Shown in pieces: positions 36,156 through 57,466 of a stretch of 64,000 nt of DNA. The notes beneath the pieces were generated by a model that saw only the letters and a list, made by a program, of their open reading frames with translations, ran no database searches and was not told the origin of the DNA. Each line of letters starts with the position of its first letter. Within the stretch, counting starts at the first letter, position 1. The position numbers and the translations under genes were made by a program. The DNA is from Bacteroidia bacterium 43-41 (GTDB taxonomy: Bacteria > Bacteroidota > Bacteroidia > Bacteroidales > Dysgonomonadaceae), in the NCBI GenBank assembly GCA_001898165.1, contig MKTD01000050.1, positions 41,691-105,690 on the forward strand, read 5' to 3'.

Positions 36156-36172
36156 TCCGAAAATTTACAGTT

Positions 36173-37660: not shown

Positions 37661-37665
37661 AAATC

Positions 37666-38832
37666 ATGAAGAGAAAATCAACAATGCTTTTATTGATACT
37701 GGCGCTGATAATTCCGATCAGCGCCATGGGACAAGGAATTACCTTTTTCGAAGGTACATGGGACCAGACTGTTAACGAAGCGAAAAAAGAGAATAAACTA
37801 ATTTTTGTGGACTTTTACGCCCAGTGGTGCGGCCCATGTCTGAATATGGCCGAGACAGTATTCCCGTTGCCGGATGTCGGAAGTTTCTACAATACTCATT
37901 TTATCAGCGCTAAGATTGATGCCGAAAATGGAGAAGGCATAGCATTGGCTAAAAAGTACGGTGTGACCAAATACCCTACTTACCTGTTTATCGATCCGGC
38001 CACAGAGGAGGTTGTACATGAAAGCAGCAGCAGGCAGTCCGGTGAACAATTTATCTATACGGGACATTCGGCCGTGACGCCCCGGTTAAGGTCTTTCTAC
38101 CTGACAGAGAATTATGAGAAGGGAGTTCATGATACCGATTTTCTTCTCCATTTTATACAATTTCAATCTTCTGTCTATAATTCAAAGATGGTGAGGGAAG
38201 CGTTTGATAAATTGATGGCTAATGGTGAAAAACTGTCCGACCCGAAAATATGGAATGTTTTTGTAGAGAATCTTCCCGGCCATGATAATCCGTATATTCA
38301 ATATGTGTCGGATAACTATACTGCTTTTTACAATCTTTTCGGGAAAGAAGTGGACAAGAAGCTTGCGAAAGAAACAACCTATATGCCTTTGGAATCATTG
38401 GATAATCTGCACGATTTTGAAGGAAAAGAGTTCAATAGAAAAATGATCGTGATTGATTTGGCCATCAAATCGAAAAACTACAGCGAAGCAGCAAAGGATA
38501 TAGATGCGCTGTTACAAGACCCGGCGACCGACAAAGAAGAACTGATCAACCGTCTCGAACCCATTGCAAGAGCCGGATTACGCCAGAAAGAGTCTAAAGA
38601 ATGGTTCGAAGAATGCCTTAATTATGCAAGATACATTGCCTATAATAAATCAGACAGAAAAGATCCGTACATTCACCAGGACTATGCCTCGGCGTTAGAA
38701 ACAGTGATCAAACAGGTCATCAACGGTGAGTCAAAAGCGCTTCCCGCTTTTTTAGGCGAGGAGCCGAAATACGGCAAAAAAGAATACTCGATGCGGCACG
38801 ATAAGTTAAAAGCCAAACCGGTAAAGAAGTAA
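37666..38832 (+). CDS. Exported thioredoxin-fold protein with helical C-terminal extension
   Basis: 388 residues from ATG 37666 (the track opens at a TTG that overlaps the SusD stop). Signal peptide MKRKSTMLLLILALIIPISAMGQ. A thioredoxin domain at about 25-135 has the redox motif DFYAQWCGPC and cis-Pro region KYPTYLFI. The remaining 250 residues are helical, without a motif I recognise. It closes the ECF/FecR/SusCD unit, suggesting a periplasmic redox step tied to the imported substrate. Exact role unknown. Confidence 0.85.
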   Translation: MKRKSTMLLLILALIIPISAMGQGITFFEGTWDQTVNEAKKENKLIFVDFYAQWCGPCLNMAETVFPLPDVGSFYNTHFISAKIDAENGEGIALAKKYGVTKYPTYLFIDPATEEVVHESSSRQSGEQFIYTGHSAVTPRLRSFYLTENYEKGVHDTDFLLHFIQFQSSVYNSKMVREAFDKLMANGEKLSDPKIWNVFVENLPGHDNPYIQYVSDNYTAFYNLFGKEVDKKLAKETTYMPLESLDNLHDFEGKEFNRKMIVIDLAIKSKNYSEAAKDIDALLQDPATDKEELINRLEPIARAGLRQKESKEWFEECLNYARYIAYNKSDRKDPYIHQDYASALETVIKQVINGESKALPAFLGEEPKYGKKEYSMRHDKLKAKPVKK

Positions 38833-38870: not shown

Positions 38871-41800
38871 TCACTCTGTTGACTCTCTGTATTCCTTGGG
38901 AGTTTTGCTGTATTTTTTAAGAAACTCTCTATAGAAATAGGCCTTATTATTGAACCCGGATGCATACATAACCTCTTGAACGGTTTTGTTGGTGGTTTTC
39001 AGAAGTTTTCCCGCATTCTTAAGCCTGATTGAACGAATAAATTCAGTGGGTGTTTTTTTAGTGATCTCTTTTATTTTGCGATAAAGTTGTATTTTGCTGA
39101 TTGCCGTTTCATTTGCAATAAAATCGATGGTGAGCTCTTCGTTATCAATATTATCATAAATAACTTTTGTAATATTCAGAATTATATCTTTGTCTTCTTT
39201 GTGGATAAGCGAGCCTTCATGTTGTTCAAGAGCGGAGTATGGGGAATTGCCGTACTCCGTTAATATATTTTTTTTGTGAAGTAAGCTTTTTACAATTACT
39301 TCTAAATGACGAAAATTGAAGGGTTTGTTTATATAGGCATCGGCACCTACTTCGAACCCCTCAATTTGGCTTTCGATGGAACTTTTTGAAGATAAAAGTA
39401 TGATGGGGATATGGTTGGTGATCTCCTGCGTTTTCATTATTTTCACAAATTCAACCCCATTCATTTTTGGCATGATAATGTCGCTGATAACCAATATTGG
39501 AAACTGTTTGTTTACAACCTGCAATGCTTCCATCCCATTGGAAGCTTCTATTATATTGTAGTTTGGGCTTAAAAGGTCTTTTATCATTAAACGGATATCT
39601 TGATCGTCTTCAACTATCAAAATAAATCCATCGTTTGAAATATAATCTTTTTCCGGTAATTCATCCTTTTCCTCTAAGAAATTGATTTCACTTGATGCGA
39701 TCGATTTTAACGGTGATAAATCGGGAGTATGATATGCTTGTCCGGATTGTTCGGATGTTTCCTCTAAGTTTGGGATGCGGACTTCAAACAATGTATATGT
39801 TTCTCCGTCGCTTTCAATCCTAATGTCTCCTTTTAGGATGTTTACGATACTTTTACATAAAGCCAATCCAATGCCATGTCGGGGATAGTCGCCGATAGTC
39901 ATTTGTTTTTCAAGACGGTTAAGGACTTCAAATCTATCGAATAAAATATCATAGTATTCTGATTTTATTCCGATGCCGGTATTTTTAATTGAGATGGATA
40001 ATACCTCGTTCTCCACGTTAACGCTAATTTCGATATGCTCTTCTTCGGATGTGTATTTTACAGCATTGGATAACAGATTGAAGATGATTTTTTCGAGGTT
40101 ACTCCTGTCTGTATTCCAAATTATATTTTCATCGGGGATAAACGTAGTAGTGTAATCAATCTTTTTTTGTTCCAATATTTCGATAAAGTTGTCGATTACA
40201 AATTTAATCAACTCAGAAATATCTACCGTTTCAATTTTTAGCTTGAGATGTCCGGTCTCGGCTTTTCTGAATTCCACGAGCTGCTCTATCAGATTCTGCA
40301 TCCTTTCCGAATTGGATTTTATTACCTGCAGATATTTTTTTGTATAGTTATCGTTCTCTTTCTCCTTCAACAATTTATCACAAGGACCATAGATAAGTGT
40401 CAATGAGTTGGAAAACTCGTGTGCTATATTGGTGAAAAAACGGAGTTTCCCTTGATGGATCTCTTCTGCTTTTTGTTTTTCCAGCTCTTTCATCCGTATA
40501 TTGTTGTTAAGCCTTATGCGATACAATATCATCTTCCTTATAATTGCCAGGATACATAAGAAAGAAACAAAGTAAAGGAAATAGGCCAGGTTGCTTTTCC
40601 ACCATGGAGGGGTTATTTCAATGGGTAAACTGTAGAGGGTTTTACCCCATATTTTATTGGCATTGCTCGTCTTGACTTTAAGTACATACTTCCCTTTTGG
40701 CAGATTAGTGAATACTATTGCATTTGATGTCCCTAAGTTAACCCAGGCATCGTGAAACCCTTCTAGCATATATGCTATTTCGCATTTGGCCGGAGCGATG
40801 TAGTCAATAGGGATGAAGCGGAAGCTGAAAGATTTGTACTTGTGTGATAAAGTAAGAATTTTAAGGTTGTTTTTTTGCACTAAATAATCGGACAAATCAG
40901 TCTCTGTATTATCAACATGAAATGCATCTAACCAGAGTTCGGGTATATATTCATTTTGAATAATTTCAAGAGGATTGAATTCATTGAATCCGCTGATGCC
41001 TCCAAAGTAAAAAAGGGAGGAGTACGGACTGGAATAATACGACCCGTCTGAAAACTCATTGTCCTGCAATCCATCATCTGTAAAGTATGAAACAATGTGA
41101 TAGGAATCTTCATCCGTTCCATCCGGAATAAGTTTTGCCAGTCCGTGATTGGTACTTACCCACAAATTATTATTTCTGTCTTCTAAAATGCCGTGAATGG
41201 TGTTGTTGGGCATTCCGTTTTTTTCACTGAAGTTAAAGACCGCAGGATGTTCTTTATTTCTCCATGTCAGCTTATTTAACCCCATACTTGTGCCGACCCA
41301 TAAACTTCCATTACTCTCTTTATACATACACAGCACATCGTCGCTACCATAGCTGTTTCCGGAAAATTTGAATATTCGAAAAGTCTCGTCAATGATGTTA
41401 AATCTGTTTACTCCTCCCCCTCGTGTACCAATCCATAAGTGGGTACTGTCTTCTTTTATAATTGAATATACAATGTTGTTGCTCAACGAAGATTTCCCTT
41501 CGTGAAAAATAAATTGCTTGTAATCAACAACCCGATAAGGAGTTGTTGAGAGATCTATCTTCAATTTGTACATGCCATAACCGCTTGTTCCTACCCACAA
41601 GATATTGTCACCGTCCGGTAAAATGGCATAGATGGATGACAGGGTTAAATTATCGGGGATATTCAGGCTGCGGATATTTTTCGTATTCTTATCATAATAA
41701 TTGATTCCGTTTCCATCCGTTCCAATCCAGTACTCATTCTTGAAGCCTTTTGCTATTTTATAAACAGAGTTGCTTAATAACCCATTCTCCATACTGAAGC

Positions 41801-42923
41801 GGTTCCTGAGTTTTAATTCTCCGGTTCCCCGACTTCTTGTAAAGTGATATATGCCTGAGCCTTTAGTGCCAACCCAAAGAGTCCGGCTTTCGTCCTCAAA
41901 AATAGTTCTCACGGCAGAATTACCAAAATTGGAGATGTTTTCTGATGAGTAGGCTCTGAATTTTTCATCAGAAGGAACAATTTTAACTATTCCTTTCATA
42001 TCTGTGCCTACCCATATAATATTTTGAGTGCCTCTATATACATTCAGCACAGGAGTATTTTCTATTATCGGGACAATATCAGTGTTAAAATCGTACAGGT
42101 ACAACCCTTTGTTCGTACCTAAAAAAACTGACCCTTCATTAAATTCAATGTCATTGATATTGCCAATATCGCCATTGAGAGGGAGCATCGTAAGCTTATC
42201 CCGATATTTATTATATGTATATACTTTATAATCTGATGTTTGTATAAGTATGTCGCCTGATTTGAGATTAAAGAAATTCTCAATGTTCTTTAATGGAAAT
42301 TGACGGGTATCACGTACAATCAAACGGCTATCCTGTGTTTGCAATGTAGCTGTAAACAGGTTTTTTTCTGTGGTTAACATCCATAAATTGTCATCACGGT
42401 CAAAAATGATTTTTTTTACATTCAGCTCTTTATTGAAATTCAGAGGTTTAAAATGTTTTTTTTCAAAGTCAAAATAGTACAGGCCTTGTTGATAAACGGA
42501 TACGACAATTCTGCCCTGAGAATTACGGGCGATTAAATAAGAGTGTTCATTTGTTATTTCCCGACTTAAAGAATCGACAAAAAAACGTTCAAAAACTTTT
42601 TCCCTGACATTAAATCTGTTTATGCCGATGTCTGTGGCAACCCACAAATAATCCCTCTTCTCTTCAACAATATCTCTGACGATGTTGTTACTTATACTTT
42701 GAATATTGCCCGGAGAAGGTTTATAAACTTGAAACTCTTTCCCATTATACAAGTTAAGCCCATCCCACGTTCCAAACCACATCAGTTGGTTCGAATCCTG
42801 AAAAACAACATTTATGGAACTGTTTGACAAACCGTCTTTGTTTGTCAGGGTTTTAATATCAAAATCAATTGCATACCCTGTTACCGGTAAAATGAGAAAG
42901 AATATGCAAATAATTTTTTTCAT
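38871..42923 (-). CDS. Hybrid two-component system sensor/regulator (HTCS)
   Basis: 1350 residues in one chain: signal peptide, many beta-propeller repeats (MWFGTWDGLNLYN-type, to about residue 660), a Y_Y_Y domain, a membrane helix near 790, histidine kinase core, receiver and AraC-type DNA-binding domain. The kinase His is H835 in AHEFSNSLTLI, where the usual R-T-P is S-N-S. The ATPase G1 box reads NTGIG rather than DTGIG. The receiver Asp is D1148 in ISDIIMPKMNG. The tail has AraC helices (RKIKEITKKTPTEFIRSIRL). Divergent from GH130, it should sense an oligosaccharide and activate the 43-52 kb locus. Confidence 0.95.
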   Translation of the reverse strand: MKKIICIFFLILPVTGYAIDFDIKTLTNKDGLSNSSINVVFQDSNQLMWFGTWDGLNLYNGKEFQVYKPSPGNIQSISNNIVRDIVEEKRDYLWVATDIGINRFNVREKVFERFFVDSLSREITNEHSYLIARNSQGRIVVSVYQQGLYYFDFEKKHFKPLNFNKELNVKKIIFDRDDNLWMLTTEKNLFTATLQTQDSRLIVRDTRQFPLKNIENFFNLKSGDILIQTSDYKVYTYNKYRDKLTMLPLNGDIGNINDIEFNEGSVFLGTNKGLYLYDFNTDIVPIIENTPVLNVYRGTQNIIWVGTDMKGIVKIVPSDEKFRAYSSENISNFGNSAVRTIFEDESRTLWVGTKGSGIYHFTRSRGTGELKLRNRFSMENGLLSNSVYKIAKGFKNEYWIGTDGNGINYYDKNTKNIRSLNIPDNLTLSSIYAILPDGDNILWVGTSGYGMYKLKIDLSTTPYRVVDYKQFIFHEGKSSLSNNIVYSIIKEDSTHLWIGTRGGGVNRFNIIDETFRIFKFSGNSYGSDDVLCMYKESNGSLWVGTSMGLNKLTWRNKEHPAVFNFSEKNGMPNNTIHGILEDRNNNLWVSTNHGLAKLIPDGTDEDSYHIVSYFTDDGLQDNEFSDGSYYSSPYSSLFYFGGISGFNEFNPLEIIQNEYIPELWLDAFHVDNTETDLSDYLVQKNNLKILTLSHKYKSFSFRFIPIDYIAPAKCEIAYMLEGFHDAWVNLGTSNAIVFTNLPKGKYVLKVKTSNANKIWGKTLYSLPIEITPPWWKSNLAYFLYFVSFLCILAIIRKMILYRIRLNNNIRMKELEKQKAEEIHQGKLRFFTNIAHEFSNSLTLIYGPCDKLLKEKENDNYTKKYLQVIKSNSERMQNLIEQLVEFRKAETGHLKLKIETVDISELIKFVIDNFIEILEQKKIDYTTTFIPDENIIWNTDRSNLEKIIFNLLSNAVKYTSEEEHIEISVNVENEVLSISIKNTGIGIKSEYYDILFDRFEVLNRLEKQMTIGDYPRHGIGLALCKSIVNILKGDIRIESDGETYTLFEVRIPNLEETSEQSGQAYHTPDLSPLKSIASSEINFLEEKDELPEKDYISNDGFILIVEDDQDIRLMIKDLLSPNYNIIEASNGMEALQVVNKQFPILVISDIIMPKMNGVEFVKIMKTQEITNHIPIILLSSKSSIESQIEGFEVGADAYINKPFNFRHLEVIVKSLLHKKNILTEYGNSPYSALEQHEGSLIHKEDKDIILNITKVIYDNIDNEELTIDFIANETAISKIQLYRKIKEITKKTPTEFIRSIRLKNAGKLLKTTNKTVQEVMYASGFNNKAYFYREFLKKYSKTPKEYRESTE

Positions 42924-43133: not shown

Positions 43134-43161
43134 GTTGAATTTAATAAAAAACGCTTATATC

Positions 43162-44205
43162 ATGGATATTGCAAAACGCTTCAATGAAAACCCATTGTTA
43201 CGTCCTTCGGACTTAGAACCGGGAATAGAAGGAATGGAAATAACCTGTTTACTTAATCCCGGAGTGTTCAGGATGAATGGCAAAACCTGGCTTTTATTGC
43301 GTGTGGCAGAACGCCCAAAACAAGTTGAAGGAAAGATAAGCTTTCCTGTCTATAATGAAGATGGAAGAATAGAGGTACTTGTTTTCGACAAAGATGACCC
43401 TCAGTTAGATGCTTCAGACCCCCGGGTGATAAGATATAAGGGGCAAAATTATCTTACTACTTTATCGTATTTGCGCCTTGTTGTTAGTGACGACGGTGTG
43501 CATTTCCGTGAAGATCCCGCTTATCCGCCTATATTCGGCAAGGGGGCGCTGGAATCGTTTGGTATCGAAGATTGCCGCGTGGCGACAATGAAAGATGGGT
43601 TTTTCCTTACCTATACAATGGTATCGCCCGTGGCGGTAGGGGTGGGGCTGATTATCACAAATGATTTCAAAACTTACGATCGGCAGGGGATGATATTCCC
43701 TCCACACAATAAGGATTGCGCTATTTTTGAAGAAAAGATAAACGGAAAATATTATGCCCTGCATCGTCCGAGTAGCCCCGAACTGGGCGGAAATTACATC
43801 TGGCTGGCCGAATCTCCCGACAGGCTTCATTGGGGAAACCACAAGTGCATTGCCGTTACCCGTCAAAACAGTTGGGATTCGGCGCGTGTGGGAGCCGGAG
43901 GCGCACCCGTTAAAACACCGGAAGGGTGGCTCGAAATATACCACGGTGCAAATACCGACCACCGGTATTGTTTGGGTGCGTTGCTGCTGGATTTGAAAGA
44001 CCCGTCGAAAGTGCTGGCGAGGAGTGTGGAGCCTATCATGGAGCCTGTTGCCGAATACGAAAAAAACGGATTTTTCGGCAACGTTGTCTTCACAAACGGA
44101 CATTATGTGGAAAACGATACCATCCAACTGTTCTACGGAGCGAGTGACGAGGTTATTTGCGGAGCTGAATTCTCAATTCAGGAAATTCTCAATTCATTAA
44201 AATAG
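43162..44205 (+). CDS. Glycoside hydrolase family 130 enzyme (beta-mannoside phosphorylase type)
   Basis: 347 residues from ATG 43162 (MDIAKRFNENPLLRPSDLEPG). No signal peptide, so cytoplasmic. Five-bladed propeller family; GIEDCRV carries the family proton-donor Asp (D137), and GNYIWLAESPDRLHWG and WLEIYHGAN are typical GH130 segments. GH130 enzymes cleave beta-linked mannosides, by phosphorolysis or hydrolysis. I cannot assign the linkage, although the sequence suggests the oligomannan/mannobiose group more than mannosylglucose phosphorylase. First gene of the HTCS-controlled operon; the next gene is 4 bases away. Confidence 0.9.
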   Translation: MDIAKRFNENPLLRPSDLEPGIEGMEITCLLNPGVFRMNGKTWLLLRVAERPKQVEGKISFPVYNEDGRIEVLVFDKDDPQLDASDPRVIRYKGQNYLTTLSYLRLVVSDDGVHFREDPAYPPIFGKGALESFGIEDCRVATMKDGFFLTYTMVSPVAVGVGLIITNDFKTYDRQGMIFPPHNKDCAIFEEKINGKYYALHRPSSPELGGNYIWLAESPDRLHWGNHKCIAVTRQNSWDSARVGAGGAPVKTPEGWLEIYHGANTDHRYCLGALLLDLKDPSKVLARSVEPIMEPVAEYEKNGFFGNVVFTNGHYVENDTIQLFYGASDEVICGAEFSIQEILNSLK

Positions 44206-44209
44206 AGAC

Positions 44210-45466
44210 ATGTCAAAAAACATATTGGGAGAATATAGGTTCTTTCGTTCTCAACCGCTGAATATAAGGACACTGCTTGTTACAAACATGTTGTACGCAC
44301 TCATATTGCCCATCATCGAGATTTTTGTGGGGGCGTATATCATGCGTAACACAGGTAACCCGGCTTATGTTGCATTTTATCAGCTGTGCATGTACTTCGG
44401 GATACTGGTTACGTCGGTGCTTAACGGGTTTATGTTGAAAAGGTTCAAAGCCTCGTTGCTTTACGCTTTCGGCATTTTGTTGTCGGCAGTTGCATTAATG
44501 GCAATGATGTTTGTGAACTCCATCGGGATCATGGAACTGGGACTGTCCGGATTTGTCCTGGGGGCATCCACCGGATTTTTCTGGACTAACCGTTACCTGC
44601 TCACGTTAAACTCAACAAACGATGAAAACCGAAATTACTTTTTCGGGTTGGAGTCGTTCTTTTTCTCGTTGTGGAGCATTACTGTTCCGTTAATTGTAGG
44701 GGCTTTTCTGGTGTCGATAGATGGATTCGTCTTTCTTGGAAAGGTGCTGGATGTGAATAATGGCTATCAGTTTATTACTGTGTTCAGCTTGCTTATCGCA
44801 ATAGCTGCCGTATTTGTTTTGTCGAAAGGGCGCTTTGAAAACCCGGTGCAAAAAAAATTCTTCTATACCCGTTTTCATATACTCTGGCAAAAGCTTTTGA
44901 CCCTTGCCGGGCTCAAAGGAATGGTGCAGGGATTTTTGGTGACAGCGCCGGCCATATTGGTTATGCGCCTTGTCGGTAACGAGGGGTCTTTGGGGTTGAT
45001 ACAAGGTGTTGGCGGGTTGCTCACGGCAATTCTGGTTTACACGTTGGGAAGGATTGCCAAACCCAAACATCGGATGGCAATCTTTGGACTTGGATTGTTT
45101 GTCTTTTTTCTGGGGACACTCTTTAACGCCATTCTTTTTTCGGCCGTTGGCGTCATTATTTTCGTGTTGTGTAAAGTGTTGTTTCAACCCTTGCACGACT
45201 TGGCCTATTTCCCAACCATGATGAAAACTATTGATGCTGTGAAAGCAATTGAAAACAGGAATGAATATGCCTATATCCTTAGTCATGAGATAGGATTGTT
45301 TATTGGGCGCGCTTTCGGAATGGGATTGTTTATATCACTGACTTATTGGGTATCGGAAGATTTCGCCTTGAAATACGCGTTGGTGATTGTAGGAGGCATT
45401 CAATTATTATCACTGCCGCTTGCTAAAAATATTATCAGCGATATAGATATTAAGTATAACAAATGA
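44210..45466 (+). CDS. MFS transporter, probably oligosaccharide permease
   Basis: 418 residues with about 12 hydrophobic segments and an MFS-like layout, including a central basic loop. It lies directly between the cytoplasmic GH130 and an exported lipoprotein, so it most likely imports the disaccharide that GH130 attacks across the inner membrane. Specificity is inferred from context only. Confidence 0.85.
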   Translation: MSKNILGEYRFFRSQPLNIRTLLVTNMLYALILPIIEIFVGAYIMRNTGNPAYVAFYQLCMYFGILVTSVLNGFMLKRFKASLLYAFGILLSAVALMAMMFVNSIGIMELGLSGFVLGASTGFFWTNRYLLTLNSTNDENRNYFFGLESFFFSLWSITVPLIVGAFLVSIDGFVFLGKVLDVNNGYQFITVFSLLIAIAAVFVLSKGRFENPVQKKFFYTRFHILWQKLLTLAGLKGMVQGFLVTAPAILVMRLVGNEGSLGLIQGVGGLLTAILVYTLGRIAKPKHRMAIFGLGLFVFFLGTLFNAILFSAVGVIIFVLCKVLFQPLHDLAYFPTMMKTIDAVKAIENRNEYAYILSHEIGLFIGRAFGMGLFISLTYWVSEDFALKYALVIVGGIQLLSLPLAKNIISDIDIKYNK

Positions 45467-45470
45467 TATT

Positions 45471-47201
45471 ATGAGATTGATATTTAATTTATTAACATTT
45501 GCCTGCATTGCCTCCCTGTTGTCGTGCAATACTGCGGAGGTTTATTATGGAGACCCTGTTGTTCAGGTTAATATTAACAGGGTGGAACTTATGCCCAACA
45601 TGCCGCAACCTTACGATTTGCTGGATTGGAAAGAAAAGGCCGGGCAATTTGATGGTTATGTTTTTGATTTTGATTCCAGGCTGCCTGCCGGACCGATGAT
45701 TTGGCTTGACAATAATCAACGCAATTTGCCGCAGCAGACCTTTGGATTATTTACCGCGGTTCATGACGTGCGCCAGGGAGCAGATGTGAACAACGGCGAA
45801 TTTCATGAAAGCCTCAACTCCTTAGCGGCAATATTAGGTGCCGGATTGATAGGGATTGATAAAACCAATCAGAACGGGTACAACTTTGTGAAAATGATCC
45901 AAAACTATTTTAATACAGATAATGGATGGAATATAATGATGAACAACACGACCCCCGAAGTGGCTCTTTTGGGTGGAGGCTACGGAAGGGACTGGTGGTA
46001 TGATGTCTTTCCGAACGTGCTGTTTTATAATGTATGTGACGTTTTTCCGGGTGTGGAGAATGCCGAAAATATACAGCGCACCATTGCAGAACAGTTTTGT
46101 AAAGCTGACTCGGTGTTAAATGGAAATTACGATTACTCTTACTTTGATTACGCTCAAATGAAGGGCATGATAAACAACATTCCGCTGCAACAGGATGCTG
46201 CCGGAGGGCACGGTTATGTGCTGTATGCGGCATACAAACAGTTTGGAGATAAGCGCTACCTGGCGCGGGCAAAATCAGCTATCGAGGCGTTAAACAATCA
46301 AACCGAAAGCCGTTTTTACGAAGTGTTGCTGCCTATTGGCGCTTACACGGCCGCCCGCTTAAATGCCGAAGAAGGGACAGAGTACAACGTAGGAAAGATG
46401 CTTGACTGGGTTTTTGAAGGCGTAAAAAGCGAAAACGGGCGTACCGGATGGGGGATAATAGTGGACAAATGGGGTGAATATGATGTTAGCGGCCTGCAAG
46501 GAAGCATTACTGACGGTGGTGGTTACGCGTTTCTGATGAACAGTATAAAGATGGCCATGCCCCTTGTCCCGATGGTAAAGTATGAGCCTGAATTTGCGAG
46601 GGCTATAGGTAAATGGATGCTGAATAATGCAAATGCTTCGCGGCTTTTCTTCCCCGATAAAATACCTGATGGTAATCAATGGCTCCCGGGGATGCAGGGT
46701 TATACGAACTCCGTTGTTGCTTATGAAGGTTTGCGTTACGCGGACGATTTGAATAACCCCCGGTTGACAGGCGTGCATCCTGTTGCAATCGGCGATGGGC
46801 CTAAGTGGCATAAAGACAATCCCCCGGAATCGATGTTCAGTCTTTACAGTACGGCTCCCGTCGGCATATTCGGGGCCATGATAGAGAAAACCAATGTCGA
46901 AAAAGTACTCAAACTTAACTGCAATGTTACTGACTTTTATTCAGACCGGACCTATCCCGTTTTTTTGTTATACAATCCGTATAACGAATCTGTGAAAGTG
47001 AAGTACACACCCGTGAAAGAGGGGGTTGACCTTTTTGATATCGTTTCAAAAACGTATTTAGCCAGGTCGGCCGGAGGTAGTGCGGAGATAGAGATACCGG
47101 CCGATCAGGCCTGTGTTGTTGTGGAGTTGCCGCCAGGCGTAGGAATAAAAAGAGAGAACAACAAGCTTTGGGTGGATAAAAAAATTATATCGTATAAATA
47201 A
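45471..47201 (+). CDS. Unrecognised 576-residue lipoprotein, possible glycan-active enzyme
   Basis: Lipobox SLLSC (Cys19) predicts a lipid-anchored envelope protein. The body is rich in aromatic and helix-turn segments (GGGYGRDWWYDVFPNVLFYNV, GHGYVLYAAYKQFGDKRYLARAKSAIEAL, GGGYAFLMNSIKMAMPLVPMVKYEPEFA), reminiscent of an alpha/alpha-barrel, and the last about 90 residues look like a beta sandwich (VFLLYNPYNESVKVKY). I do not recognise a CAZy or Pfam family. It is the only candidate extracytoplasmic depolymerase between the permease and SusC, so a new glycoside hydrolase or lyase is a reasonable hypothesis. It could instead be a surface glycan-binding protein. Confidence 0.6.
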   Translation: MRLIFNLLTFACIASLLSCNTAEVYYGDPVVQVNINRVELMPNMPQPYDLLDWKEKAGQFDGYVFDFDSRLPAGPMIWLDNNQRNLPQQTFGLFTAVHDVRQGADVNNGEFHESLNSLAAILGAGLIGIDKTNQNGYNFVKMIQNYFNTDNGWNIMMNNTTPEVALLGGGYGRDWWYDVFPNVLFYNVCDVFPGVENAENIQRTIAEQFCKADSVLNGNYDYSYFDYAQMKGMINNIPLQQDAAGGHGYVLYAAYKQFGDKRYLARAKSAIEALNNQTESRFYEVLLPIGAYTAARLNAEEGTEYNVGKMLDWVFEGVKSENGRTGWGIIVDKWGEYDVSGLQGSITDGGGYAFLMNSIKMAMPLVPMVKYEPEFARAIGKWMLNNANASRLFFPDKIPDGNQWLPGMQGYTNSVVAYEGLRYADDLNNPRLTGVHPVAIGDGPKWHKDNPPESMFSLYSTAPVGIFGAMIEKTNVEKVLKLNCNVTDFYSDRTYPVFLLYNPYNESVKVKYTPVKEGVDLFDIVSKTYLARSAGGSAEIEIPADQACVVVELPPGVGIKRENNKLWVDKKIISYK

Positions 47202-47217: not shown

Positions 47218-50200
47218 ATGAAGAGAACATTATTTTTTGTAATGGTGGTTTGTGCTGCTTTGGGATTGCATGCTCAAACAACTGTCAACGTCAGGGGTTC
47301 TGTTAAAGATGCCCTGTCTAATGAAGAATTAATCGGAGTGACTGTACTTGTTATTGAAACGGGTAATGGAACTGTTACCGACATTAACGGAAACTTTGAA
47401 TTAACCGTTCCGGTAAATAATACCCTGAGAATATCGTACGTGGGATATTCTAATCAGGAAATTGTTATAACCAATCAAACGGTGTTGGAGATTAACCTTC
47501 AGCCCAAGACTCAGCTGATGGATGAAGTGGTGGTGGTTGGATACTCCGCACAAAAAAAGTCAACCCTTACCGGGGCGGTGGCGCCTGTTAACGTTGATGA
47601 TATGGAGCGGCGCCGCGTTGCCGATGTAAGGCAGGCGCTTCAAGGACAAGTAGCTGGTGTGCAGGTGACCCAAAGCACCGGCGCCCCCGGTGATGAGATA
47701 GATATCAGAATCAGGGGAGAGGGCACCATCGGCAACAACAATCCGCTTTATGTTGTGGATGGAGTTCCTACCCGGGAATTGGCGTTTATCAACCCGTCCG
47801 ATATCGAATCCATGACTGTGTTGAAAGACGCCTCTGCTGCTGCCATTTACGGTTCGAGAGCCTCGGCCGGGGTAATTGTCATTACAACAAAGGGCGGTGT
47901 TGCCGGAAAAACTAAATTCGAGGCAAATTTTTACAGCGGCATACAATACGCTTCAAATCTTCCTAAAATGCTGAATGCCGAACAGTATATGAATGTTGTG
48001 GAAAAAGCGTGGAACAATGCCGGTTATTCCGGCACAAATCCCTATACCGCGGATAAAGGGCGAAGTGATTTTGCAGACACCGACTGGTTAGATGAACTTT
48101 TTGAGCCGGGCCATATGCAGAATATTCAGATGACGGCAAGTGGAGGCAGTGATAAGTTACAGTACTTACTCTCCCTAGGATACGTTAATCAGGACGGTAT
48201 TGTTGTGTATGATAACGATAAATACAAGCGTTTTAATTTTCGCACGAACATCAATGCCAACCTGACGGAAAGAATAAAAATAGGGACCAATATGCAACTT
48301 TCCTATGCTGTTCAGGATAAACTGTCGTCGAAAGGCGATGCCCCCGGAATCATAAGGCACGCACTTCTACGTCCACCGGTTATTCCGGTATTCAAGTCGC
48401 CCGACGATCCCACCTATTCGGAGAGGAATCCCTTTACCGACCTTCCTTTTTATGTTCATAACAACAGAGATACGGGCGGTTGGGAAAGCGATAAGTACGA
48501 ATGGACACAAAATCCGATTGCCCTGGCTTATTTCACTGATGACACCCACTCACATTTCAAAACATTCGGCAACATTTTCGGGGAAATCTCCTTCTTACCC
48601 GAAAAAGAACTGACTTACAGAACCAATGCGGGTATTGATTTAAACTTTCTGCATGACAAGGCTTTTTATGCCAATTTTGGGGATGATGATGGCGGTGGTA
48701 GTCAGATAGATCGCGGCTTAGGACGCCAAAACAGGCCCAATGGATTAAATGAATACAGGGGTGAAGAGCTGACCTTTACCTGGAACAACACATTGAGTTA
48801 TAACAAAATGTTCAATCTCCATTCTTTAAATGCCTTGGTAGGGAGTGAATTTATCACCAATTACGGTTCGGGAATAAATGCTTCAAGAAGAAGATATGAG
48901 TATGATACCGAGAAGTTCAGATATATTGATTTTGGAAGTACCGAACAGGATTTATGGAATGGGGGAAGCGGCTCGGAATGGGCGTTGATGTCTTACTTCA
49001 CCTCATTGACTTATGTGTATGACATGAGGTATATGCTCACGGCAAACTTCAGGGCAGATGCCTCTTCCCGGTTTGCAGAAAAAAACCGATGGGGATATTT
49101 CCCTTCCTTGTCAATCGGCTGGAAGTTATCTGAAGAACAATTTCTAAAAAAACAGGAGTGGCTTTCCGACTTGAAACTGAGGGCAAGCATCGGGCAGTTA
49201 GGGAATCAGGAAATTGCTAACTACGCTTATCTTACGTTGATAAAAAAAGATGGAGACAAATACCTTATCTCAAGATATGGGAATCCCGACTTAAAGTGGG
49301 AAACCACCACACAGTATAACGTAGGACTCGATGTAGGTGTCTTAAGAAACAGGTTGTATTTCACCGCAGACTATTTTCAGAAATATACCACGGACATCCT
49401 GTTGCCTATAAGCCTTCCGAGTATCGTAGGTGACGTACAGCCCACTATCGTTAATGCAGGAGAAGTGAGTAACCGTGGTTGGGAATTTGGCATAACGTTG
49501 CGCAATTCCGAAAGTGTATTTAAATACAACATCAATGCCAACATATCCACCGTAAAGAACCGGGTGGAAAAACTGCACCCTAACCTTCCCAGTTTGGTTG
49601 GATCAGTCACAAGAACGGAACCGGGGCAACCGCTTAATGCCTATTACGGATATGTTTTTGAAGGAGTATATCAAAATACGAATGAAATAAAGACTCATTT
49701 GCATGGCACCACTAACCCAACGCCCGTACCCGGTGATATTCGATTTAAAGATTTAAATGGCGATGGCAGAATTGACGACAACGACAGGGATTTCATCGGC
49801 GATCCTAACCCGGGATTGTTGTATGGATTAAATTTTTCCGGTTCGTATAAAAATTTCGATGTGGCGATACTCTTTCAAGGTGTTGGAAATGTGGACAGGT
49901 ATAACGACTCTAAAAAGATAATTGATTATGATACGCGTCCGTTTAATTACACCACAAATATTTTGAACGCATGGGATGGAGAGGGATCAACCAATACAAT
50001 TCCCCGTGTGAGCTTTACCGATAACGGAAGTAGCAGAATATCAAGCATATTTGTTGAGGATGCTTCTTACCTCAGGTTGAAAAATGTTGAAGTCGGATAT
50101 TCTTTTACAAACATCAGAAAACTGGGCTTGCAAAATATAAGAATCTATGTGTCAGCTCAAAATCTCTTTACACTGACCAATTATACAGGGCTTGACCCGG

Positions 50201-50277
50201 AATCTACGGATTTAATTGATATGGGGACTTATCCGCAGTCGAGATCTTTTATTTGTGGAATAAATTTTTCTTTTTAA
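47218..50277 (+). CDS. SusC/RagA TonB-dependent glycan transporter
   Basis: 1019 residues without an STN domain, as expected for a SusC controlled by an HTCS rather than by sigma/anti-sigma. Signal peptide, carboxypeptidase-like beta domain (VRGSVKDALSNEELIGVTVLV), DEVVVVGYSAQKKS, plug (DIRIRGEGTIGNNNPLYVVDGVP) and barrel ending CGINFSF. It pairs with the SusD gene 21 bases downstream. Confidence 0.95.
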   Translation: MKRTLFFVMVVCAALGLHAQTTVNVRGSVKDALSNEELIGVTVLVIETGNGTVTDINGNFELTVPVNNTLRISYVGYSNQEIVITNQTVLEINLQPKTQLMDEVVVVGYSAQKKSTLTGAVAPVNVDDMERRRVADVRQALQGQVAGVQVTQSTGAPGDEIDIRIRGEGTIGNNNPLYVVDGVPTRELAFINPSDIESMTVLKDASAAAIYGSRASAGVIVITTKGGVAGKTKFEANFYSGIQYASNLPKMLNAEQYMNVVEKAWNNAGYSGTNPYTADKGRSDFADTDWLDELFEPGHMQNIQMTASGGSDKLQYLLSLGYVNQDGIVVYDNDKYKRFNFRTNINANLTERIKIGTNMQLSYAVQDKLSSKGDAPGIIRHALLRPPVIPVFKSPDDPTYSERNPFTDLPFYVHNNRDTGGWESDKYEWTQNPIALAYFTDDTHSHFKTFGNIFGEISFLPEKELTYRTNAGIDLNFLHDKAFYANFGDDDGGGSQIDRGLGRQNRPNGLNEYRGEELTFTWNNTLSYNKMFNLHSLNALVGSEFITNYGSGINASRRRYEYDTEKFRYIDFGSTEQDLWNGGSGSEWALMSYFTSLTYVYDMRYMLTANFRADASSRFAEKNRWGYFPSLSIGWKLSEEQFLKKQEWLSDLKLRASIGQLGNQEIANYAYLTLIKKDGDKYLISRYGNPDLKWETTTQYNVGLDVGVLRNRLYFTADYFQKYTTDILLPISLPSIVGDVQPTIVNAGEVSNRGWEFGITLRNSESVFKYNINANISTVKNRVEKLHPNLPSLVGSVTRTEPGQPLNAYYGYVFEGVYQNTNEIKTHLHGTTNPTPVPGDIRFKDLNGDGRIDDNDRDFIGDPNPGLLYGLNFSGSYKNFDVAILFQGVGNVDRYNDSKKIIDYDTRPFNYTTNILNAWDGEGSTNTIPRVSFTDNGSSRISSIFVEDASYLRLKNVEVGYSFTNIRKLGLQNIRIYVSAQNLFTLTNYTGLDPESTDLIDMGTYPQSRSFICGINFSF

Positions 50278-50298: not shown

Positions 50299-51783
50299 AT
50301 GAAATTTTATAAGAATCTGTTTTTAATGATAATCGGGATGCTCCTGTTGTCAGGATGCGAAGGCTATCTGTCGAAAGACCCGATAGGCCTGTTGACGCCC
50401 GATCAGGTTGATATGCAGCCAACGACTACCACTGTACAATATGCGGTGAGTTCATCTTATCAGCTGCTTTCGAGTACGTTGAATATTATCGGAGAGTGGG
50501 GATGGAATGACGGAACAGTTACCAGAGGCGACTTTATCCTCCAGGACATCGCTTCCGATGATGTGCAGAAAAAATGGAATCCCGATGGAGATCAGGCTTG
50601 GATGGATGAGCTCAATAATTTTAGTTTTATTGCCTCAAATGCTGGATTCAATGGACAATGGGCGTATGATTATGAAGGAGTTTCGAGAGTAAATACGGCT
50701 ATCGACTATTTAACCAATGAGGAGATGATGGCTAAGCTTAATTTCAATAAATCGGAACAAGACAGGCTTTTAGGAGAGGTGTACTTTCTAAGGGCTTTTT
50801 ACTATTTTGATTTGGTGACGAATTTCGGAGGGGTTCCATTGTTATTGAAGCCGTTGACATCTTTTAATGAGGCTTACGAAGTTGCTGTAAGGGCAACAGC
50901 CGATGAGGTCTGGGCACAGATTGATAAGGATTTGAACGATGCCAGGGGGTTGTTGCCCGATGCCAAATATTCTCATCAACAAGAAAAATGGCGTGTGTCG
51001 AAAGGGGCGGCTATAGCCCTTCAGGCGAAAGTAGCGCTGTTTAACGAAAGATGGCAGGAAGTAATTACTCGTGTAGAGGAACTCGAAAACACGGGGTATT
51101 ACAACTTAAACAACAATTATTTCGATAGCTTTGATGTGAATAAACAATTCCAAGAACAAGAAGTGATCTTTTGCTATAATCACGAATCAGCCCAGACTCC
51201 GAGAAAAGGGAACGGTTTATGTGCTCTGCTGGGTTGGGGATTCGTGGCGCCTGAAGCATCATTTATTGCGGCTTTTGAGGAAAATGATCCAAGATTGCTC
51301 TATACTGTAGATGTTGGATCAAAAAATATAAATAAAATTTTGGGAACGCTCGACGGGAAATATAAAGGTGATGATGATGCGCCAAGCAGCCGGGTTTATA
51401 TTCGTTATGCCGATGTTCTCTTGTGGAAAGCGGAAGCGTTGTTAAAAACCGGAAAATTACAAGCGGCTATCGGTATTATCAACCGGGTTCGCCAAAGAGC
51501 CAGGAACTCGATGGCCGCTGACGGGACTCAACCGCCGGCCGGAACATTGCCCGACAGAGATGTCAATGAGTCAAATGCGTCTGTTGTCTCAAACTGGTTG
51601 ATTCACGAAAGAAGAGTTGAATTTGGATTTGAATCTCACCGTTTTCGCGATCTTAAACGCTGGGGTATTGCAGAAGAAGTGTTAGGCGCCCGGGGATTTC
51701 AAAGTGTGCATTATCTGTACCCTATCCCTCAAAGGGAGATAGATAAATCTGGAGGAAGCATAGTTCAAAATGACGGATACTGA
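50299..51783 (+). CDS. SusD/RagB-family glycan-binding lipoprotein
   Basis: 494 residues with lipobox LLSGC (Cys20). Typical SusD content: LLGEVYFLRAFYYFDLVTNFGGVPLLLKPL, RYADVLLWKAEALLKTG, INRVRQRARNS and HERRVEFGFESHRFRDLKRWG. It should cap the upstream SusC and bind the target glycan at the surface. Last gene of the GH130 locus, followed by a strong terminator. Confidence 0.95.
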   Translation: MKFYKNLFLMIIGMLLLSGCEGYLSKDPIGLLTPDQVDMQPTTTTVQYAVSSSYQLLSSTLNIIGEWGWNDGTVTRGDFILQDIASDDVQKKWNPDGDQAWMDELNNFSFIASNAGFNGQWAYDYEGVSRVNTAIDYLTNEEMMAKLNFNKSEQDRLLGEVYFLRAFYYFDLVTNFGGVPLLLKPLTSFNEAYEVAVRATADEVWAQIDKDLNDARGLLPDAKYSHQQEKWRVSKGAAIALQAKVALFNERWQEVITRVEELENTGYYNLNNNYFDSFDVNKQFQEQEVIFCYNHESAQTPRKGNGLCALLGWGFVAPEASFIAAFEENDPRLLYTVDVGSKNINKILGTLDGKYKGDDDAPSSRVYIRYADVLLWKAEALLKTGKLQAAIGIINRVRQRARNSMAADGTQPPAGTLPDRDVNESNASVVSNWLIHERRVEFGFESHRFRDLKRWGIAEEVLGARGFQSVHYLYPIPQREIDKSGGSIVQNDGY

Positions 51784-52079: not shown

Positions 52080-52152
<73 letters not shown>

Positions 52153-52160
52153 CAAGGTCT

Positions 52161-52244
52161 GCTCGGATGGTGGAATGGTAGACACGCAAGACTTAAAATC
52201 TTGTGACCATTACGGTTGTGCGGGTTCAAGTCCCGCTCCGAGTA
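52161..52244 (+). tRNA. tRNA-Leu (UAA)
   Basis: An 84-base class II tRNA. The acceptor GCTCGGA pairs with TCCGAGT (first pair G-U), the anticodon loop CTTAAAA gives TAA at 52194-52196, and there is a long variable arm (TGACCATTACGGTTGT region). The T arm contains GGTTCAAGTCC. Eight bases separate it from tRNA-Gly. Its 3-prime end borders the mobile element; tRNA-Leu is a known integration target of Bacteroides NBU1-type elements. Confidence 0.95.
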
Positions 52245-52247
52245 CTC

Positions 52248-52286
52248 CAAAAGGCTGTAAGTCAATTGATTTACAGCCTTTTGTGT
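52248..52286 (+). terminator. Terminator after the tRNA pair
   Basis: CAAAAGGCTGTAA (52248-52260) pairs perfectly with TTACAGCCTTTTG (52271-52283). The loop is itself nearly palindromic, giving an almost continuous hairpin, followed by a T-rich run. Confidence 0.8.
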
Positions 52287-52292
52287 TTCTTA

Positions 52293-52312
52293 GGGGCGCC
52301 AAAGGGGCGCCC
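52293..52312 (+). repeat. Paired GGGGCGCC repeat near the element edge
   Basis: GGGGCGCC occurs at 52293-52300 and again at 52304-52311 with AAA between. Each copy contains the palindrome GGCGCC, and together they can also pair as a hairpin. Its G+C richness stands out in A+T-rich surroundings, just beyond the tRNA terminator. It could be a recombinase-binding site or part of the attachment region. Confidence 0.4.
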
Positions 52313-52398
52313 AAATCAAAATAACAAAAACCTTAAGCATCTTTAACGGTCAGATAATAATTTAACGGATAAATTCCTGATATTTTCCATTTTATCGC

Positions 52399-52406
52399 TA
52401 TTTTTG
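52399..52406 (+). promoter_or_regulatory. -7 box for the RteC-like gene
   Basis: TATTTTTG followed by CC, 27 bases upstream of the ATG at 52433. Confidence 0.5.
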
Positions 52407-52432
52407 CCGATAATGCTTTTCCGGAATAATTT

Positions 52433-53272
52433 ATGGAATCAACTTTTTTCCGCCTCCAACATATCGTAAACCAATACACTTCCTATCGTTTAAGAAAAGC
52501 CATCCAACTTTTTGGTTTAAAATCTGAGTATTGGGATAAAAAGACTTTGTATTCCCACATTGAGGAGGAAATTTACAATTCATCCCTTGAACTTATCGAA
52601 CTTCACGACAAATATCCTATCCTGCATATCACCACCAATTTCTCCGATTTGAAAAACGTGCTATGGGAAAGTACGTTTATCGAATCGCTTTCACCCGATG
52701 AAAGAAAAAAGTATTGGAATTCCGAACAATTATCGTTGAGATTTGAAAAGTTGAAAAACGATAACACCATTTACGATGAACAAATTCCATACTTTTCCGG
52801 TATTCTTTCATCCGTTTATTTAACCGAATACATTGCCTACCTGCAATCGCAATTGCCCAAAGAACAACCGGCACAAACTTTGACCGCATTAGAAACGAAA
52901 TCCACTTTTGAAGCCGGGTTCACACTTCCTCAAATAGAATTATTGACACAATGCGTGAACGAAGTGCGCTTATTTACCGAAAACATTGCAATCGAAACAT
53001 TTGAAAATATTTTATCCTGCACACTTGCCGGACCGCTGAAATCACGCAACAACCGATTGTTGGTATATTTCTTCTCCGCTTTAGACGACCGCAGCCTGAT
53101 AAACCGCAATTGGCAAGCCGTTATCCATAAAAACCGCCTGTTTCTTTCCTCCGGAAAAAACAATCCACTTACTCAAACAGATTTATCTTCTGCCAAAACC
53201 GAATTAAAAGATTCCTCGCCGAAAGGTTCGGAAATCATCGACAAGTACCTCAAAGAACTGAAAAATCATTGA
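52433..53272 (+). CDS. RteC-domain protein
   Basis: 279 residues. The helical sequence (FRLQHIVNQYTSYRLRKAIQLFG early; STFEAGFTLPQIELLTQCVNEVRLF centrally; LLVYFFSALDDRSLINRNWQAVIHKNRLFLSS late) matches the RteC pattern. RteC of CTnDOT-type elements activates excision genes, and RteC-like proteins occur in many mobilizable elements. It lies 53 bases before the excisionase-like promoter, which would be its natural target. Intact frame. Confidence 0.75.
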   Translation: MESTFFRLQHIVNQYTSYRLRKAIQLFGLKSEYWDKKTLYSHIEEEIYNSSLELIELHDKYPILHITTNFSDLKNVLWESTFIESLSPDERKKYWNSEQLSLRFEKLKNDNTIYDEQIPYFSGILSSVYLTEYIAYLQSQLPKEQPAQTLTALETKSTFEAGFTLPQIELLTQCVNEVRLFTENIAIETFENILSCTLAGPLKSRNNRLLVYFFSALDDRSLINRNWQAVIHKNRLFLSSGKNNPLTQTDLSSAKTELKDSSPKGSEIIDKYLKELKNH

Positions 53273-53324
53273 GAATAGGTTGATAACTCAACCATTGTCA
53301 ATTACACCCCTGTTTTTCATCCTC

Positions 53325-53356
53325 TACTTTTGCCCTTGTAATTACAAAAACAAGGG
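53325..53356 (+). promoter_or_regulatory. -7 box with overlapping palindrome before the excisionase-like gene
   Basis: TACTTTTG (53325-53332) is followed directly by CCCTTGTAATTACAA, which contains the perfect 12-bp palindrome TTGTAATTACAA (53336-53347), and then CAAGGG (53351-53356) pairing with CCCTTG (53333-53338). The structure covers the expected transcription start, a likely operator for the RteC-like or HTH protein. Confidence 0.5.
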
Positions 53357-53397
53357 TATGCAGACCCATTTGTATTCATCTATAAAAATAAAAACAA

Positions 53398-53694
53398 ATG
53401 GAAAATTCAACAACAGTTTTGGAGCAACGCATCCAACAGTTAGAAAAGAGCCTGTATCAGGCAAAAAAGATTCTCAGTTTCGAAGAAGCGTGCGCGTTTC
53501 TCAACTTTTCGAAAAGCTATCTCTACAAACTCACATCAGCGTGTGCCATTCCGCACTACAAACCAAGCGGGAAGATGGTTTATTTCGAACGGGAAGAACT
53601 GGAAAACTGGCTCCGGCAAAATCCGGTAAAAACCCGTGAACAAATCGAAATGGAAGCCAACGCGTACATTTTGAAGAATAGTAAGAGACGATGA
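53398..53694 (+). CDS. Excisionase-family helix-turn-helix protein
   Basis: 98 residues. A MerR-like winged helix (ILSFEEACAFLNFSKSYLYKLTSACAIPHYKPSGKMVYFEREELENWL) is the excisionase/DNA-binding HTH signature of Bacteroidetes mobile elements. An N-terminal coiled-coil (TVLEQRIQQLEKSLYQAK) may dimerize. It probably controls or assists excision and element gene expression. The stop overlaps the ATG of the next gene (ATGA). Confidence 0.88.
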   Translation: MENSTTVLEQRIQQLEKSLYQAKKILSFEEACAFLNFSKSYLYKLTSACAIPHYKPSGKMVYFEREELENWLRQNPVKTREQIEMEANAYILKNSKRR

Positions 53695-54902
53695 AAAGGG
53701 ATAAGGCTCAATACAAGGATACTCAATCGGGTAAACAATCCAAAAACGAGCGCATCGAAACCTTTCTTCGGGGCGAGTTTGACTTTCGTTTCAACACCGT
53801 CAAATCCCGGACAGAGTATAAGGAAAAGGGTTCCGAGAAGCCCTTTTCCGTACTCACCAAGTTCGACATCAACTCCATCCGGCGCATATTGGACAGTAAA
53901 GGCGGCATCTATACCTCGCCCGACAACATCCGTAACATCCTGGAGAGCAATTTTGCACCGAAAGTAAATCCCATAAAAGAATACTTCCAAAACCTGCCCG
54001 CTTACCCATCCAACGACGACACGTCACCCATTACGGAGCTGGCGAAGTGCGTAACGGTTAAAAATACCAACAATTGGAACGGATACCTGCTCAAATGGCT
54101 GGTGGCAGTAGTGGCCAACGCGATGGACGATACCGCGTGCAAAAACCACACCTGTCTGGTGCTGACCGGCAGGCAGGGAGAGTATAAAACCACTTTTCTG
54201 GATATGCTTTGTCCCACAGGCCTTCAGAATTATCTTTTCACCGGTAAAATCGATCCGCAGAACAAGGACGTCCAAACCCTGATGGCGGAATTCCTGCTTA
54301 TCAATATCGATGACCAACTTCGAGCACTAAACAAACGGGATGAAAACGAACTGAAAAATCTGATCACGACACCTTTCGTGAAGTACCGCCGTCCGTATGA
54401 CATCTACATCGAAGAACATCCGCACAGGGCAAGCTTTATGGCGTCGGTAAACGGAAACGACTTCCTGACCGATTCCACCGGAAGCCGCCGTTTCCTGCCG
54501 TTTGAAGCGTTATACATCGACATAGACAGGATGAAAGATACGGATATGGACAACGTGTTCAGCCAGGCATATCATCTTTACAAATCGGGATTCAGGTATT
54601 GGTTCAACAAAGACGAAGTGATGGAACTCAATTACTCCAACAACGAGTTTCAGATGCAGACGGTGGAATACGAAATGTTGATAAAGGGATTTACGGAGCC
54701 GGATGAAAACGGCACGCAAGACTGTTTTTATACCACCACGGAAATTGTCGATTACCTGCAACCCTTTTGTTCCACCCGCCTTGTTGTAAAACAGATGGGC
54801 GAAGCCTTACGTAAAAGTTCATTCAAAAGGGAATCAAGACGTGTAAACGGCAAGCCCGTTTGGGGCTACCTGCTGAAACAGGTAATCCCCGTGCCGTTTT
54901 AA
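53691..54902 (+). CDS. VirE/VapE-family P-loop ATPase (primase-helicase type)
   Basis: 403 residues. A C-terminal ATPase of the VirE family with phosphate-binding loop GRQGEYKTTFLDML (160-169), Walker B-like EFLLINIDDQLRAL, and PYDIYIEEHPHRASFMASVNGNDFLTDSTGSRRFLPF, a stretch typical of these proteins. Such proteins act in element replication, usually beside a CHC2/Toprim primase, as here. Translationally coupled to the upstream HTH gene by ATGA. Intact frame. Confidence 0.85.
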   Translation: MKRDKAQYKDTQSGKQSKNERIETFLRGEFDFRFNTVKSRTEYKEKGSEKPFSVLTKFDINSIRRILDSKGGIYTSPDNIRNILESNFAPKVNPIKEYFQNLPAYPSNDDTSPITELAKCVTVKNTNNWNGYLLKWLVAVVANAMDDTACKNHTCLVLTGRQGEYKTTFLDMLCPTGLQNYLFTGKIDPQNKDVQTLMAEFLLINIDDQLRALNKRDENELKNLITTPFVKYRRPYDIYIEEHPHRASFMASVNGNDFLTDSTGSRRFLPFEALYIDIDRMKDTDMDNVFSQAYHLYKSGFRYWFNKDEVMELNYSNNEFQMQTVEYEMLIKGFTEPDENGTQDCFYTTTEIVDYLQPFCSTRLVVKQMGEALRKSSFKRESRRVNGKPVWGYLLKQVIPVPF

Positions 54903-55192
54903 CTTTCACTATTTCTACTTACTACCTTACTACAACCTAAAAAAATAAAGAATAATACAGTGAAAGAAAAAGAGTTGTGCTGTCGTAACATCTTTTTCGG
55001 ACAAGTTACGACCCACTTACGACATTACTACACGGGTGCACGATGTAGTAGGACAAATCAACAACCGTCGTAAGATGAAAACAGAAAATAACGATACTTT
55101 TTTCTTTCACTGTCAATGAATTAAACAGATGTAGTACGTAGTAAGAGAAAAACCCAAACCTCCAAAGTACATAACACTAAAAAACAAAAAAA
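54903..55192. repeat. Iteron-like candidate replication origin between ATPase and primase
   Basis: No gene in these 290 bases. Four copies of an octamer (G/C)TTACGAC are present: GTCGTAAC 54982-54989 (reverse), GTTACGAC 55005-55012, CTTACGAC 55016-55023 and GTCGTAAG 55067-55074 (reverse). They are enclosed by ACAGTGAAAGAAAAAG (54957-54972) and its near-exact inverse CTTTTTTCTTTCACTGT (55097-55113). TACTAC/GTAGTA motifs recur on both sides. The arrangement between replication genes suggests an origin or autoregulatory region of the element. Function is inferred. Confidence 0.5.
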
Positions 55193-56098: not shown

Positions 56099-56281
56099 AT
56101 ACAGACCGCTAAACATCAATAAGACCGTAATAAATGAGATGAAAAACAAGGTTAAATTCGCTGAGTAAACAACGAAGCACGAATCTCGAAGAATGTAAGA
56201 AGCAGGTTTGTGTTTCGGGCAGCCCGAAACCTTGTTTTTCATCCCGTTGGTCTCCATTTACACCCATAAACAAGTACAGAA
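56099..56281. other. Candidate oriT: nested inverted repeats upstream of the mob genes
   Basis: A 183-base gap without a gene. GATGAAAAACAAGGTT (56138-56153) and AACCTTGTTTTTCATC (56228-56243) are a perfect 16-bp inverted repeat separated by 74 bases. Inside, GTTTCGGGC (56212-56220), one A, GCCCGAAAC (56222-56230) forms a tight hairpin that shares bases with the right arm, so the two folds are mutually exclusive. Position directly before the mobilization genes is where oriT normally lies. It could alternatively be a terminator or attenuator; the T run after the right hairpin (CTTGTTTTTC) allows that. Confidence 0.5.
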
Positions 56282-57415: not shown

Positions 57416-57466
57416 ATTCAACAATTAAGCAGTTTAACAAAATAACAAAACAACAAATTAAAAACT

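Follow-up and report, generated by a model that had tools for sequence, protein, structure and literature searches.

Beta-1,2-mannan is a sugar chain of some yeasts and other microbes. In the open-licence literature, phosphorylases and exo-mannosidases have been described for beta-1,2-mannosides; no endo-beta-1,2-mannanase or other enzyme cutting the beta-1,2-mannan chain was found there. The GH130 beta-1,2-mannoside phosphorylases include Uhgb_MS, Teth514_1788/1789 and Lin0857, the last a beta-1,2-mannobiose phosphorylase (PMC8950772). The GH130 beta-1,2-mannosidases BT3780 and BACOVA_03624 are extracytoplasmic five-bladed beta-propellers acting in exo mode on alpha-mannan caps, and within GH130 a Lys is the likely beta-1,2 determinant, with Tyr replaced by Glu next to the catalytic acid (PMC4599007).

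Here we analyzed a 64,000-nt stretch of DNA from Bacteroidia bacterium 43-41 (the window), in which a lipoprotein gene lies between a GH130–permease pair and a SusC/SusD pair. Taking together what was computed on the family, its predicted fold and conserved acids, the operon, its co-inheritance and the specificity residues of the GH130, we infer, with a probability of roughly 0.6, that this lipoprotein is a hydrolase of an undescribed (alpha/alpha)6-barrel family that cuts beta-1,2-mannan or oligomannosides in an extracytoplasmic position, probably on the periplasmic side. Like BT3780 and BACOVA_03624, it would thus act on beta-1,2-mannosides outside the cytoplasm, and a BT3780-type enzyme shares a locus with one member of its family, but the fold of these mannosidases is unrelated to that of the lipoprotein. 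Uhgb_MS, Lin0857 and Teth514_1788/1789 belong to the same predicted pathway, but they carry out a cytoplasmic downstream step and are likewise unrelated to the lipoprotein.

The operon and its lipoprotein gene

The first-pass annotation of the window had listed GH130, permease, SusC, SusD and HTCS genes around a 576-residue lipoprotein, and all five were borne out by their Pfam domains. The features are as follows.

38871..42923, minus strand: HTCS hybrid two-component regulator, divergent from the operon (Reg_prop, Y_Y_Y, HisKA, HATPase_c, Response_reg, HTH_18)
43135..44205, plus strand: GH130, predicted cytoplasmic beta-1,2-mannobiose/oligomannoside phosphorylase (PF04041, 1.5e-46; Glu145, Lys193)
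44210..45466, plus strand: MFS permease, predicted importer of short oligosaccharides (MFS_1)
45471..47201, plus strand: lipoprotein, predicted (alpha/alpha)6-barrel glycoside hydrolase of an undescribed family
45471..45527, plus strand: lipoprotein signal peptide and lipobox to Cys19 (sequence; family comparison)
45627..46880, plus strand: lipoprotein helical barrel, residues 53-470 (AlphaFold secondary structure; conservation)
46908..47192, plus strand: lipoprotein C-terminal beta-rich domain, residues 480-574 (AlphaFold secondary structure)
47218..50277, plus strand: SusC-type TonB-dependent transporter (CarbopepD_reg_2, Plug, TonB_dep_Rec)
50299..51783, plus strand: SusD-type glycan-binding lipoprotein (SusD_RagB, SusD-like_3)

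The operon order is GH130, MFS permease, lipoprotein, SusC and SusD, with gaps of 4, 4, 16 and 21 nt; the true start of the GH130 may be an in-frame ATG about 27 nt downstream of 43135. Scans for promoters and terminators gave no more matches than in shuffled sequences. According to Pfam, the operon encodes no glycosidase besides the GH130, the lipoprotein aside, and a known beta-mannanase domain was absent from all operon genes scanned, which agrees with the earlier remark that the locus holds no known depolymerase. An HTCS also adjoins many relatives of the lipoprotein.

The lipoprotein reading frame is open over its 576 codons and starts with a signal peptide and lipobox (...SLLSC19NTAEV...), and, as had been noted at first, no known family matches it: no Pfam or NCBIfam family reached its cut-off (the top Pfam score, 16.1 bits, fell short of the 23.3 required) and a sequence search of the PDB was empty. 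A profile built from 56 family sequences returned only noise from the PDB, and no GH5, GH26, GH113 or GH134 domain, representing the known beta-mannanase families, was found by Pfam in the lipoprotein or the 56 family members. Since 55 relatives could be aligned to it, with 33-84% identity and 27 invariant columns, the reading frame is not a chance one. By these sequence searches the family is probably undescribed, although a CAZy family that has no Pfam or NCBIfam model could exist.

Predicted fold and candidate active site

AlphaFold models of the window lipoprotein and of a distant long-form relative (pLDDT 93.6 and 95.0, respectively) both showed an (alpha/alpha)6 barrel followed by a beta-sandwich. 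In the window lipoprotein, the helical barrel spans residues ~53-470 and the beta-rich part residues ~480-574, matching the helical body and beta tail first read from the sequence. Foldseek searches with both models placed GH127/GH146 at the top, followed by other (alpha/alpha) barrels, with TM-scores that were low (0.3-0.5); most of the best solved matches were (alpha/alpha)6 glycosidases. The superfold of the modelled lipoprotein is therefore clear but its placement in a family by fold is not, as no solved fold is close.

The best solved matches of both models, the GH127/GH146 beta-L-arabinofuranosidases HypBA1 and Ara127N, have the same combination of (alpha/alpha)6 barrel and beta-sandwich, but share only ~8-13% identity with the lipoprotein family, at low TM-scores. 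None of the 56 family members matched the Pfam GH127 catalytic domain (PF07944), and the profile-profile comparison with GH127 by hhalign gave 2.8%, which is under the 10.7% of a SusD negative control. In GH127 enzymes the nucleophile is a Cys located at a zinc site, and neither the catalytic nor the zinc-binding Cys residues have a counterpart in the lipoprotein family, where no Cys is conserved. Membership of GH127 was ruled out by the sequence profile and this absence of a conserved Cys. The GH76 endo-alpha-1,6-mannanases, GH88, GH116 and GH94 also have the superfold in common with the lipoprotein, with weaker Foldseek matches, but their identity to the family is ~10% and no family member matched them in Pfam.

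Among the 56 sequences, E113, E284, E419, D442 and D488 never vary, D or E occupies position 242 throughout (56/56), and D174 and D338 are each kept in 55/56. E113, D174, D/E242 and E284 precede by 1-2 residues the helices starting at 114, 175, 243 and 286, which are successive alternate helices. In (alpha/alpha) barrels, such alternate helices usually form the inner layer, and the catalytic groups of (alpha/alpha)-barrel enzymes are usually located at helix N-ends. The family alignment contains no invariant His or Cys; no His column exceeds 70% conservation, and, apart from the lipobox, the most conserved Cys column reaches 57%. Conserved carboxylates together with the lack of an invariant His or Cys are, at the level of sequence, the pattern of a carboxylate-based hydrolase, and the conservation of the acids and their position at the predicted helix ends would fit a putative acidic pocket. 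The first-pass annotation had proposed an alpha/alpha-barrel enzyme on the basis of position and composition, as a new family filling a depolymerase gap, and had suggested structure prediction with Foldseek as a check. The two models, which represent distant members, support such a fold; the top matches are enzymes, the fold is not of a purely binding type, and no characterized binding-protein family matches. With no family found in Pfam, NCBIfam or the PDB, the new-family proposal gained support as well, catalysis being suggested by the predicted enzyme fold.

The partner GH130 and the likely substrate

The window GH130 matched Uhgb_MS with 610 bits and 74% identity, one Uhgb_MS entry being a complex with 1,2-beta-mannobiose, and Lin0857 with 328 bits and 48% identity. 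It carries Glu145 beside the catalytic Asp and Lys193 at the position equivalent to BT3780 Lys199, which places it in the beta-1,2 class. Among GH130s from family loci, the Glu was found in all and the Lys in 48/49. Of 11 control GH130s, six had Tyr and Arg (GH130_2-like) and five had Glu and Lys; the Glu/Lys pair, being present in 5/11 controls too, therefore marks a class of GH130 and not the lipoprotein locus alone. NCBIfam scores by themselves fail to split beta-1,2 from beta-1,4 GH130s, because only beta-1,2-type models and BtaManbiosPhlase, a name left unexplained, fired. In the SusCD locus of a distant short-form relative (L058), the GH130 scored 641.8 bits as a beta-1,2-mannosidase (BT3780) against a cut-off of 550, so that the family is associated with phosphorolytic as well as hydrolytic beta-1,2 enzymes.

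The GH130 partner and its specificity residues thus point to beta-1,2-mannosides as opposed to beta-1,4-mannan or N-glycan. The latter two substrates are disfavoured by a GH130 with Glu/Lys and not the Tyr/Arg of the GH130_2-like controls.

Co-inheritance and distribution of the family

In 47/52 loci, the family gene has a GH130 no more than 10 kb away. Among the five others, two are cut by contig ends (L015, L023), one lies on an 11.6-kb contig (L066) and one 5 kb from a contig end (L061); the genome of the fifth (L022) has no GH130 relative at all. GH130 relatives were present in 19/19 family-positive genomes compared to 132/396 overall (p ~3e-10, with phylogeny not corrected). The converse fails, as GH130s 62-65% identical to that of the window occur without the lipoprotein family. 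Such GH130s were observed alone in a conserved chromosomal neighbourhood at three loci (L104, L105, L108), without MFS, SusCD or lipoprotein, which indicates another role for this GH130 clade there.

Across 32 complete loci, distances of the lipoprotein co-varied with those of the MFS permease (r = 0.93) and GH130 (0.88) more than with SusC (0.58), and SusC and SusD co-varied with each other at 0.98. GH130, MFS permease and lipoprotein therefore form a cassette joined to varying SusCD pairs, which fits an enzyme feeding its product to the permease and phosphorylase.

Relatives of the lipoprotein were found at 33 GTDB loci, all titled as Bacteroidota groups, and in 19/396 sampled Bacteroidota genomes, with the nearest relatives in Proteiniphilum and Petrimonas. 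The family has two forms, a short form like the window protein and a long form of ~1,040 aa with additional Ig/PKD-like and Laminin_G_3 domains and a type IX secretion tail; some loci carry both forms, or a tandem pair of short copies (L008, L026). Two plasmid copies were found, on Persicobacter pPP5 (both forms) and Aureibacter pAT2, where the short form is annotated 'hypothetical protein'. These large Persicobacteraceae plasmids carry the complete HTCS–GH130–MFS–lipoprotein–SusCD–LamG locus (L100 12683-27155 on pPP5, L101 9686-18335 on pAT2), and on pPP5 an alpha-amylase-family gene lies between this locus and the long form. N-runs of ~3.1 kb adjoin the GH130 genes in L020, L114, L115, L117, L118 and L119, at the site and with the length expected of the long form, and for this reason its presence or absence was set aside as evidence. 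In distant Bacteroidota (L063, L114-L119), an ABC-transporter-type locus was observed with two GH130s, a GH2 and a GH94-like gene; here a 420-450 aa protein (cluster c8) lies beside the GH130s, and the two sampled had no Pfam family match.

Cellular location and proposed pathway

Acid-rich residues after the lipobox Cys are a surface-export mark in Bacteroidota. The window lipoprotein has only one acid at positions +2 to +6 after Cys19 (NTAEV), and the mean number of acids in the five positions after the lipobox Cys was 0.75 for the short form, compared to 2.86 for the LamG binding protein of the same loci and 1.54 for SusD, the comparison resting on the 24/58 family members that were recognized by a lipobox regular expression. 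Because of these few acids, the short form is placed, with moderate confidence, on the periplasmic side.

In the pathway that we propose, SusC/SusD would carry the glycan over the outer membrane and the lipoprotein would cut it, in endo or exo mode, to short oligosaccharides, probably with beta-1,2-mannobiose among them; the MFS permease would import these, phosphorolysis by the GH130 would give mannose-1-phosphate, and the HTCS would sense a breakdown product. Cleavage may proceed by an acid/base mechanism, probably inverting, with two of E113, D174, D/E242, E284, D338, E419 and D442 as candidate catalytic residues. In some relatives, a T9SS-secreted, LamG-bearing paralogue could make the first cuts outside the cell.

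More tentatively, the family may be a new GH family of true endo-beta-1,2-mannanases, comprising a short form in the periplasm and a long LamG form secreted by the T9SS and occurring on plasmids as well, that represents the missing depolymerase step in Bacteroidota beta-1,2-mannan catabolism. The novelty would probably be that of a new family inside a well-known locus type. If the proposed function is correct, the family supplies the chain-cutting step of beta-1,2-mannan use, and this step could be tested with named genes of cultured Proteiniphilum, Labilibaculum, Bacteroides ihuae, Parapedobacter and Persicobacter. The family would then also reveal which Bacteroidota are able to use beta-1,2-mannans from yeasts, trypanosomatids or bacterial O-antigens.

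Alternative functions

SusC/SusD operons usually encode a binding protein besides SusD, and in the window operon no separate gene for a LamG binding protein follows SusD, so that the lipoprotein, by its place in such an operon, could be a non-catalytic glycan-binding or chaperoning protein (SusE/SGBP-like) using the (alpha/alpha) barrel as a binding scaffold. This appears distinctly unlikely considering that conserved acids are found at the N-ends of the barrel helices and that the top fold matches are enzymes. The features of SGBP/SusE-type proteins were not seen either, with a helical barrel instead of a beta-sandwich binding fold and few acids after the Cys. Moreover, many relatives' loci encode a separate LamG/FIVAR lipoprotein whose acid-rich export signal fits the binding role, the long form has a LamG domain and secretion tail of its own, and the lipoprotein co-varies with the MFS permease and GH130 more than with SusCD.

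A hydrolase of the same fold could instead act on another bond, removing caps or branches or working in exo mode on a mixed glycan to leave beta-1,2-mannosyl remnants for the GH130. The identity of the GH130 reveals only which bond is split last, that of the final disaccharide, and other linkages could be present in the polymer; GH2 and GH94-like genes are also found in distant loci, and beta-1,2-mannose is known to cap alpha-mannan (PMC4599007). We consider this unlikely, since the window operon encodes no other glycosidase, so that a mixed glycan would need enzymes from elsewhere, and since a beta-1,2 glycan most simply accounts for a family that is paired both with beta-1,2 phosphorylases and with a beta-1,2-mannosidase. 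That the lipoprotein is an epimerase or lyase built on the (alpha/alpha) superfold is very improbable. AGE-type epimerases and a mannose isomerase did appear among the fold matches of the second model, but His is required by AGE enzymes and by many (alpha/alpha) lyases, and no His column in the family is conserved above 70%; in addition, the lipoprotein lies outside the cytoplasm, and mannan lacks the uronic acid on which a lyase or C5-epimerase would act. The matches to a C5-epimerase C-terminus and to LanC, which would also favour an epimerase or lyase, were sub-threshold, covered only ~30-40 residues and were read as generic (alpha/alpha) repeat similarity.

Other genes of the window

The HTCS gene (38871-42923) has a G+C content of 0.36-0.38, which is below that of the operon it faces (~0.41-0.46). 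Upstream, at 32835-38832, a second SusC/SusD pair is followed by a thioredoxin-like protein instead of a glycosidase. In the region 52080-58045, tRNA-Gly and tRNA-Leu genes lie directly downstream of the operon, followed by a probable mobilisable element with VapE-like (53691-54902), Toprim (55445-56098) and MobC/NikA-like (56282-56638) genes. The region 58186-63240 encodes a type I restriction-modification system, in which N6_Mtase and Methylase_S domains are found in a single 890-aa reading frame, followed by an HsdR-like subunit.
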